The notes under the pieces were generated by a model, which was not told the origin of the DNA, made no database searches, and worked only from the letters and a program-made list of their open reading frames with translations. 37,436 nt of DNA. Origin: Desulfurococcaceae archaeon. Lineage in GTDB: Archaea > Thermoproteota > Thermoprotei_A > Sulfolobales > Ignisphaeraceae. How positions within the stretch are numbered: the first letter of the stretch is position 1; each line of letters opens with the position of its first letter. The stretch is taken from assembly GCA_020832925.1 (NCBI GenBank), contig JAJHRF010000013.1, positions 1 to 37,436 of the forward strand, given 5' to 3'. A program made the position numbers and the translations under genes. Shown here one piece after another: positions 17,249-33,075 of the stretch.

Positions 17249-17339
17249 CCCGCCGTAGCTCAGCGGCAGAGCGCCCGGCTGTAGTGAGGCGGGCGTGGAC
17301 ACCGGGTGGTCGGGGGTTCAAGTCCCCCCGGCGGGACCA
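17249..17339 (+). tRNA. tRNA-Tyr (GTA) with a 16-nt intron
   Basis: The acceptor CCCGCCG (17249-17255) pairs fully with CGGCGGG (17329-17335). The D stem is GCTC/GAGC, the anticodon stem CCCGG/CCGGG and the T arm GGGGG-TTCAAGT-CCCCC. The discriminator is A and CCA is encoded. The loop between the anticodon stems is 23 nt. Removing 17285-17300 leaves CTGTAGA with anticodon GTA. The intron sits after position 37, the canonical site. CUGU can pair with GUGG, leaving three-nt bulges AGU and ACA, which is the bulge-helix-bulge cut by the archaeal splicing endonuclease. The C1-G72 pair is the archaeal tyrosine identity element. Confidence 0.97.
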
Positions 17340-17537: not shown

Positions 17538-17757
17538 ATACCTTACATTTTGTCAGTCCATGGAAATCTCATCATGTATTCAGCTCCTGCCGATTTCATC
17601 ACAACAACTCCTCAAACATAGTTAAAATCGTGAAGAGTATATATTTTGTTACGATATATCGTGTTAAGTAAGCTCTGCTTAATAATACAATACAAAGTAT
17701 AAAAATAATTATTAATACAATGTTTGAATAATTTGCTCATCATATATCTTAGTTGCG

Positions 17758-20175: not shown

Positions 20176-20886
20176 ATGGATAACTCAACGGCTCTCTGTG
20201 CATGGAATAGAGATAGAGTTCTTAAGCTCTTAGATATCCTCTTGAATAGATATACTATTGATTTAAGCGAATTTGTTGTAGGGCATATATCTACTATAGA
20301 GAAGCCTAGTTACTTCGAAATCCTCGTTGCCATAATTCTTAGCCAGAATACCAGCGATAGAAATGCTATAAAAGCTTTTAAGAATTTAAAGAATTCGTTA
20401 GGATTGATAACGCCTGAGAAAATAATTAAACTACCTGATGATTATTTAGCTAGCTTAATTAAGGTGGCAGGACTAACGTATAGAAGGGTTAGGATATTGA
20501 AAGCTTTAGCTACAAAAGTGTTAGAGACCCCTGACATCTTCTCAAAGATAGAAAATGCTGAACCAGAACATGCAAGAACATTACTTCTGAGTTTACCCGG
20601 GGTGGGGTCTAAAACAGCCGACGTTTTTCTCTTGATGGTGTTAAATAAGCCAACCTTTCCCATAGATACACATATTGACAGAGTGACGCGAAGACTTGGC
20701 TTAGCATCGCCTGAAGATGATTACGAAGATATAAGGGTTAAGATGATGAATCTGCTGGAAAATGATGTTAATAAACTACGATATATGCATCTCCTCCTAA
20801 TTGTTCATGGAAGAAACGTCTGTAAAGCCCGGAACCCGTCATGTTCTCAATGTGTCTTAGTTGATATGTGTTGCAGAAGATTGTAA
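20176..20886 (+). CDS. nth: Endonuclease III (DNA glycosylase/AP lyase)
   Basis: This base-excision repair enzyme of 236 residues removes oxidised pyrimidines and cuts at AP sites. The helix-hairpin-helix LSLPGVGSKTADVFL carries the catalytic lysine, and PIDTHIDRVTRRLG carries the catalytic aspartate, the HhH-GPD core. The 4Fe-4S cluster loop at the C-terminus is CKARNPSCSQCVLVDMC (C-x6-C-x2-C-x5-C). The N-terminal QNTSDRNAIKAF segment is the other conserved part. The ATG follows GATGAGGCG. The gene is monocistronic. Its TAA stop lies at the edge of a C/D sRNA candidate on the opposite strand. Confidence 0.97.
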   Translation: MDNSTALCAWNRDRVLKLLDILLNRYTIDLSEFVVGHISTIEKPSYFEILVAIILSQNTSDRNAIKAFKNLKNSLGLITPEKIIKLPDDYLASLIKVAGLTYRRVRILKALATKVLETPDIFSKIENAEPEHARTLLLSLPGVGSKTADVFLLMVLNKPTFPIDTHIDRVTRRLGLASPEDDYEDIRVKMMNLLENDVNKLRYMHLLLIVHGRNVCKARNPSCSQCVLVDMCCRRL

Positions 20887-20947
20887 ATAATCAGAAGCAC
20901 CGGGAACATCATGATTCAGCGCTCAGCTATCTCATCACTAATATTTA
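20884..20947 (-). ncRNA. Box C/D sRNA candidate
   Basis: On the minus strand the order is: terminal-stem strand TAAATA, box C GTGATGA (20938-20932), a 12-nt guide GATAGCTGAGCG, D' CTGA (20919-20916), a 3-nt spacer, C' ATGATGT (20912-20906), an 11-nt guide TCCCGGTGCTT, box D CTGA (20894-20891), then TATTTA pairing with the 5' TAAATA. Box spacing is canonical. A TATA box (20964-20972) predicts a start near 20943. Targets by complementarity would be CGCTCAGCTATC and AAGCACCGGGA, which I cannot place in rRNA or tRNA from memory. Confidence 0.78.
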
Positions 20948-20963
20948 TGTACATATCTAGCCC

Positions 20964-20972
20964 CTATATATG
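20964..20972 (-). promoter_or_regulatory. TATA box of the C/D sRNA at 20884-20947
   Basis: ACATATATAG on the minus strand is centred about 25 nt before the predicted sRNA 5' end. Confidence 0.5.
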
Positions 20973-20990
20973 TACGTATTAACCTCAACA

Positions 20991-21544
20991 CTACAGTATG
21001 TATATCCTACAGCATTCACTTCCATATAGAACCTCTATAACTTGAAAAGGTTCAAGCCACTCTACACTATAATCTAGAGAAATTATCGTTGTTCCAAGAC
21101 TTAGTTCTTTAAGCATCTCAACCTTCAACCTGTTTAGAGTATTCGTTGTTAAATACGTACACAATTGTTGCCCGCGATACATCGACCTTAAATATATCCT
21201 TATTTATGAAGAGAATTCTGTCAATCAAGTTCAACTGTTGTACATTTCTGTACACCAGCTTTATCATATCTTCATCAATTTCTATACGAAGAGCTTTTGC
21301 ACCACGTTTCGCTGCTTCAATCACTACCCTCCCCTCCATAACCGAGATCCACAACAATACCTTCAGGATCCACAGCGATTAAGTCTAACACTAACTTCAC
21401 AATATTCATGGACATGGGAACTCACGATGCTTCCACATATCCCTAGACAACCCCCAGTTTATCCCAGAACGCAGCCGTATTAATCAAATCATCAAATATT
21501 CTTTCGACATCTTCTCCTAGCAACATTCTATACCTACCTAACAT
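20991..21544 (-). pseudogene. Decayed SAM-dependent methyltransferase
   Basis: Translation pieces line up as one small class I methyltransferase. The N-terminus MLGRYRMLLGEDVERIF runs to …FWDKLGVV, then in-frame TAG (21443-21445) and TGA (21422-21424), then NIVKLVLDLIAVDPEGIVVDLGYG (motif I). A frameshift near 21330 leads to EGRVVIEAAKRGAKALRIEIDEDM (motif II acidic end). After INKDIFKVDVSRATIVYVF a one-base shift near 21138 leads to EMLKELSLGTTIISL and the C-terminus at 20991. The domain order of crenarchaeal PrmA/Dot1-like small methyltransferases is complete. Two stops and two frame changes make it non-functional. Confidence 0.85.
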
Positions 21545-21703: not shown

Positions 21704-21762
21704 GAGATCAGTGGGTGCCGACAACATCATATTTTCAGTGCGAGCTACTTAACATCATCCAA
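21704..21762 (-). ncRNA. Box C/D sRNA candidate
   Basis: On the minus strand: box C ATGATGT (21758-21752), a 13-nt guide, D' CTGA (21738-21735), a 4-nt spacer, C' ATGATGT (21730-21724), a 12-nt guide TGTCGGCACCCA, box D CTGA (21711-21708). Both D boxes are exact, and both C boxes share the same final-base change. Spacing is canonical. A TATA box at 21783-21791 predicts a start near 21762. No clear terminal stem is seen. The complements of the guides are TGCGAGCTACTT and TGGGTGCCGACA; I cannot assign the targets. Confidence 0.7.
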
Positions 21763-32999: not shown

Positions 33000-33075
33000 C
33001 GTATTCAGGAAGTTTATCGAGCCTATCATCACTTCTCAGTTCCCGGATTCCTCTTCATCTAGGTATACTAAGTAC
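33000..33075 (-). ncRNA. Box C/D sRNA candidate
   Basis: On the minus strand: box C TAGATGA (33061-33055, imperfect), guide, D' CTGA (33039-33036), a 3-nt spacer, C' GTGATGA (33032-33026), guide, box D CTGA (33008-33005). GTAT upstream of box C pairs with ATAC just after box D. A TATA-like CTTAAAAAG near 33095-33105 would start a transcript near 33075. The guides are long (15 and 17 nt) and box C is weak, so this is tentative. Confidence 0.42.

Follow-up and report, generated by a model that had tools for sequence, protein, structure and literature searches.

C/D box guide RNAs are numerous in hyperthermophiles, and many of them have no assigned target. The target rules and gene context of the archaeal guides have been described (PMC7994747, PMC4644070), and C/D sRNPs are reported to act on intron-containing pre-tRNAs (PMC7668247). 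In Pyrococcus (sR50) and in Haloferax volcanii, the intron of pre-tRNA-Trp encodes a C/D guide for Cm34 and Um39 (PMC7994747, PMC11408192). In S. acidocaldarius, tRNA-Gln is reported to be targeted in both its D-loop and its anticodon loop, and Am38 has been reported in some P. furiosus tRNAs (Wolff 2020, PMC7668247). The locus described here resembles the pre-tRNA-Trp system, as the latter is described in those papers, in that a C/D guide would act on an intron-containing pre-tRNA at anticodon-arm sites; however, the guide there is the intron itself, whereas here a separate gene appears to read the intron junction of another tRNA. As in the S. acidocaldarius case, one tRNA would be marked in the D-loop and the anticodon loop, here by prediction, but the predicted target is tRNA-Phe rather than tRNA-Gln, and the accessible part of that report mentions no intron-junction guide. 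In the accessible text of PMC7668247, PMC7994747, PMC4644070, PMC11408192, and PMC6313347, and in text searches of the literature, we found no account of a separately encoded guide that bridges a tRNA splice junction. The box architecture is shared with archaeal C/D sRNA families such as Rfam sR33, whose guides are different.

The DNA analyzed here, referred to as the window, is a stretch of 37,436 nucleotides from a Desulfurococcaceae archaeon. A stand-alone C/D box sRNA gene of the archaeal type, presumably expressed, occupies 20938-20891 of the minus strand. Our main reading, to which we assign a probability of about 0.72, is that this sRNA is a methylation guide: its D guide would recognize pre-tRNA-Phe(GAA) at the 3' splice junction, with A38 as the modified nucleotide, and its D' guide would most likely recognize the D-arm of tRNA-Phe. 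The relevant features are as follows.

17249-17339, plus strand: intron-containing tRNA-Tyr(GUA); ARAGORN fails on its anticodon
20176-20886, plus strand: nth-like HhH-GPD/endonuclease III gene of 236 aa, with HhH-GPD and EndIII iron-sulfur motifs; convergent neighbor of the sRNA
20965-20970, minus strand: TATA-like putative promoter element TATATA, read from the sequence
20942-20947, minus strand: possible terminal stem, 5' half TAAATA, read by eye
20932-20938, minus strand: C box GTGATGA, from the box scan; conserved in the first 7 homologues
20920-20931, minus strand: D' guide GATAGCTGAGCG, 12 nt; pairs with GCUCAGCU of the tRNA-Phe D-arm (nt 10-17) or with CGCUCGGCUG of 16S rRNA
20916-20919, minus strand: D' box CTGA, from the box scan and homologue alignment
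20906-20912, minus strand: C' box ATGATGT, from the box scan and homologue alignment
20895-20905, minus strand: D guide TCCCGGTGCTT, 11 nt; pairs with pre-tRNA-Phe at AGGC|ACCGGG, its 3' intron-exon junction
20891-20894, minus strand: D box CTGA, from the box scan and homologue alignment
20884-20889, minus strand: possible terminal stem, 3' half TATTTA, read by eye; 3 nt lie over the nth stop codon

The four boxes, the 12- and 11-nt guides, and the 3-nt D'-C' spacer that had been proposed by a sequence-only reading of this DNA were confirmed, in the order GTGATGA-12 nt-CTGA-ATC-ATGATGT-11 nt-CTGA. The order and span (about 50 to 60 nt) expected for boxes C (RUGAUGA), D', C', and D (CUGA) of archaeal C/D box sRNAs are thus seen here, as are the expected guides of about 10 to 12 nt beside D' and D and a short spacer, ATC, between D' and C'. 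A strict four-box pattern occurred twice in the window (both strands) compared with 0 times in 300 dinucleotide shuffles, and a looser pattern occurred 4 times compared with a shuffle mean of 0.003. The four-box architecture is therefore far above chance. Rfam yielded no family at the gathering score over 20891-20938. The halves of the proposed TAAATA/TATTTA terminal stem can form 6 bp with an asymmetric inner loop when paired by eye, but the stem is absent from the predicted minimum-energy fold and is not conserved among relatives. TATATA is present at 20970-20965, at a distance of about 18 to 23 nt from the predicted 5' end and not the 25 nt given before. Both the architecture of the sRNA and its location at a gene end are ordinary.

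The sRNA is kept in all 11 genus genomes and in two others of the family (G011 and G015). Loss of the boxes in close relatives had been named as a finding that would speak against the gene; the boxes are present in 11/11 genus genomes. A 91-nt query gave matches in 7 of 41 genomes, the genome of origin being one of the 7, and an alignment of these first 7 homologues contained 34 invariant columns, all within the boxes and guide cores, with no conservation in the flanks, including the terminal stem. The boxes and guides are hence conserved in relatives while the flanks change. A sequence model built from G000, G001, G002, G003, G010, G011, and G015 was run against 118 relatives and matched 47 of them at an E value of ≤0.1, mostly weakly; at ≤7.1e-8, it matched all 11 genus genomes, G011, G015, G059, and G082. 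Since the model was built from 7 genomes, G004 to G009, G059 (which has no clean D box), and G082 are new finds. A pattern spanning the C box, the core of the D' guide, and the D' box was present in 16 of 214 genomes of the order and its reversed control in 0 of 214. The core, AGCTGAGC, was fixed in 7/7 of the first homologues; its presence in all 16 pattern matches is a requirement of the pattern itself. G059, G032, and G099 contain the D' core and were not counted as full members because they have no clean C'/D half, and the D'-C' spacers of G007 and G008 are longer. With a slightly stricter pattern, 35 contigs of a GTDB-based collection matched, 10 of which, all archaeal, had all four boxes; the other 25 had no second half, were mostly bacterial, and were set aside as probable chance matches. 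It is of note that in G082 (L133/G082:C7), a genome of another family, the sRNA-nth locus is nearly identical to that of G005, pointing to bin contamination or transfer.

Of the 44 tRNA matches in the genome of origin, 30 loci, together with 12 additional stretches, were searched in precursor form. Among these pre-tRNAs and the rRNAs of relatives, pre-tRNA-Phe(GAA) was the top match of the D guide, with a score of 9.3 of 10. The match is AGGC|ACCGGG, with the bar marking the 3' splice site called by ARAGORN, and in the predicted fold the anticodon stem continues into intron sequence, where three nucleotides, GCA, bulge out as expected. A tRNA-Phe was found in G000, G001, G002, G003, G007, G008, G009, and G010 and also in G082; it was sought and not found in the sRNA-bearing genomes G004, G005, G006, G011, and G015, and the pairing therefore covers 8 of the 13 genus and family guides. 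In all 8 genus genomes with a tRNA-Phe, guide position 5, the position relevant to the N+5 rule, pairs with A38. Position 4 is Watson-Crick paired with the junction in 8/8 genomes and reaches this by three different pairs: G-C in G000 and G010; A-U in G001, G002, G003, and G009; and U-A in G007 and G008. Position 3 forms a Watson-Crick pair in five genomes, G-U in one (G002), and a mismatch in two (G007 and G008), and position 1 pairs only in G000. Contiguous pairs number 10 in G000; 9 in G001, G003, G009, and G010; 8 in G002; and 7 in G007 and G008.

When the guides were reassigned among the 8 genomes, an equal or better total was reached in 48 of 40,320 permutations, a P value of about 0.001 that is uncorrected though several candidate sites had been examined earlier and that rests on a crude additive score, not on energies. 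Without G003 and G008, 6 of 720 permutations were as good. G082, where a G005-type sRNA stands beside a nonmatching tRNA-Phe, was left out as a probable contaminant because its sRNA and nth are close to those of G005 and its own tRNA-Phe does not fit. An nth tree covering nine genomes places G002 and G009 beside G000 and places G001 and G003 beside G010, with low support inside the latter group; since G000 and G010 are separated in this tree, the G-C state at position 4 was not inherited as a single block. Substitutions in the D guide appear to track those at the 3' intron-exon junction in pre-tRNA-Phe, and that one guide seems to follow a tRNA intron junction would be the unusual feature of this locus.

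As for the D' guide, its core AGCTGAGC is complementary to GCUCAGCU, nt 10 to 17 of tRNA-Phe, through 8 Watson-Crick pairs in 8/8 genomes; in the genome of origin, this octamer is also found in tRNA-Asn, tRNA-Arg(UCU), and tRNA-Ala(CGC). We consider the D-arm of tRNA-Phe (nt 10 to 17, N+5 at C13) to be the most likely target of the D' guide, without certainty, and 16S C736 to be an alternative or second site. It is conceivable, although rather doubtful, that the sRNA is a mixed guide, with the D guide acting on pre-tRNA-Phe and the D' guide acting on 16S C736. In a simple 10-nt test, the 16S site has the best D' score (8.6, compared with 7.3 for tRNA-Phe), and 7 of the 13 guides from the genus and family have G, the complement of the 16S C, at D' position 1; however, the remaining 6 have T or C there, and the 16S pairing needs a conserved G-U at position 6, where the invariant U of the guide faces A14 in the tRNA and G in 16S rRNA.

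A conventional double guide for rRNA, with D' directed to 16S C736 or 23S C2246 and D directed to 23S rRNA near E. coli position 2231, is unlikely. As 16S and 23S rRNAs of the genome of origin were not found in its genome bin, the rRNA tests were done on sequences of relatives, in which the best fits of the D' guide are 16S C736 and 23S C2246 (E. coli numbering; 4 and 8 genomes, respectively). Pairing at the 16S site amounts to 9 to 10 bp, two of them G-U, and the site does not vary among the aligned sequences; according to the accessible text of PMC7994747, archaeal guides assigned to rRNA outnumber those assigned to tRNA. With full-length guides, the best 23S columns are 2246 for D' and 2231 for D, and the latter site was attractive because it lies 15 bases from the former. 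However, permuted D' guides reach an equal best rRNA score in 40 of 1,000 trials, which is marginal, and the invariant U of the D' guide (position 6) is opposite G in both 16S and 23S rRNAs but opposite A14 in the tRNA. Moreover, the D guide has no stable best rRNA site, its optimum shifting from 23S 2231 with 11 nt to 23S 1854 with 10 nt, and permuted D guides match the top score fixed for comparison in 68 of 1,000 trials. Site 2231 was dropped, since 38,880 of 40,320 permutations (8 genomes) did at least as well there as the true pairings, and permuted guides did equally well at 23S 1854 and at the 16S sites. G053, whose D guide has a different sequence, gave no convincing rRNA site for it. 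The matching of the guides to rRNA and tRNA genes that had been recommended earlier thus bore fruit in pre-tRNA-Phe but not, for the D guide, in rRNA. Separately, the 16S gene of G008 (L025 8877-10571) is about 190 bases longer than those of its relatives, with an insertion near E. coli position 687 that is probably an rRNA intron.

That the intron-containing tRNA-Tyr of the window (17249-17339) is the target, or a second target, of the D guide seems improbable. Its anticodon stem, CCCGG/CCGGG, is identical, and good matches exist in G001, G002, and G006, those in G002 and G006 taking in the following U44 as well. However, tRNA-Tyr and tRNA-Phe differ at position 4 in G007, G008, and G009, and there the guide follows Phe in 3/3 genomes and is mismatched to Tyr. 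Overall, there is no covariation with tRNA-Tyr, since 24,126 of 100,000 permutations across 10 genomes were as good as the true assignment. The D guide of G004 and G005, CCCGGATTGT, is mismatched to A38 in the tRNA-Tyr of these genomes and matches none of the targets found.

The sequence-only reading had described the sRNA as antisense to the end of nth and had suggested a collision with the nth mRNA. The two genes are indeed convergent in 9 of 11 genus genomes, but because the nth stop codon TAA lies at 20884-20886, the overlap is limited to the last 3 nt of the outer stem. Across genomes, the stop codon begins 40 to 68 bases past the C box core and overlaps the D guide or the D box in just three of them (G003, G009, and G010). 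Beyond the 3 nt over the stop codon in the window, no extended complementarity of the sRNA to the nth coding sequence was present. A search of genome contigs with the nth protein found no relative. An antisense regulator of nth is highly improbable, for although the genes are mostly convergent and the sRNA reaches the stop codon in three genomes, it is kept in four (G007, G008, G011, and G015) with no nth within 3 kb, its conserved bases are the boxes and guides, and at most a few nucleotides overlap the coding sequence. Nothing supports an effect on nth, and the importance proposed for this gene is weak.

Returning to the tRNA-Phe reading, the D guide would pair with the last nucleotides of the intron, with the bulge of the bulge-helix-bulge motif, and with nt 39 to 43 on the 3' strand of the anticodon stem, and the N+5 rule would place a 2'-O-methyl group on A38, the first nucleotide past the intron. 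The D' guide would pair with the D-arm of tRNA-Phe, directing modification to C13, or else, or in addition, with 16S rRNA at C736. Since intron sequence lies opposite guide positions 1 to 4, the modification would have to precede splicing. From the observed gene, its conservation, its complementarity, and its covariation with the junction, we infer assembly with L7Ae, Nop5, and fibrillarin, as well as expression, methylation, and the order of methylation relative to splicing. More speculatively, a trans-acting C/D sRNP might sense the intron: it would bind the 3' bulge and the D-arm jointly, methylate A38 (and C13), and keep the 3' splice site closed up to its own release, which would put methylation ahead of splicing and let guide and intron coevolve as a pair. 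If the tRNA-Phe reading is true, targets of orphan guides may be found among unspliced precursors instead of mature RNAs, with guide-intron covariation as a computational test; the sRNA would also be a candidate source of methylation at tRNA position 38, and a cultured species of the genus could be used to test in which order methylation and tRNA splicing occur.

The window contains further features. The other match to the strict four-box pattern, at 17553-17602 on the minus strand, is a candidate C/D sRNA with the guides AATCGGCAGGAG and AGATTTCCATGGA; its D guide scores 8.0 of 10 with the 23S rRNA of G002. Another candidate, at 21708-21758 on the minus strand and about 0.8 kb from the main sRNA, has a D guide with full complementarity over 10 nt to the 23S rRNA of G004, and an Rfam sR33 C/D sRNA is found at 33003-33062 (minus strand), just over the gathering score. 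Lastly, a class I methyltransferase gene at 20997-21336 (minus strand) is split into two frames that meet near 21124-21176; its homologue in G002 is a single frame of 155 aa, and the split may be a real frameshift or a sequencing error.
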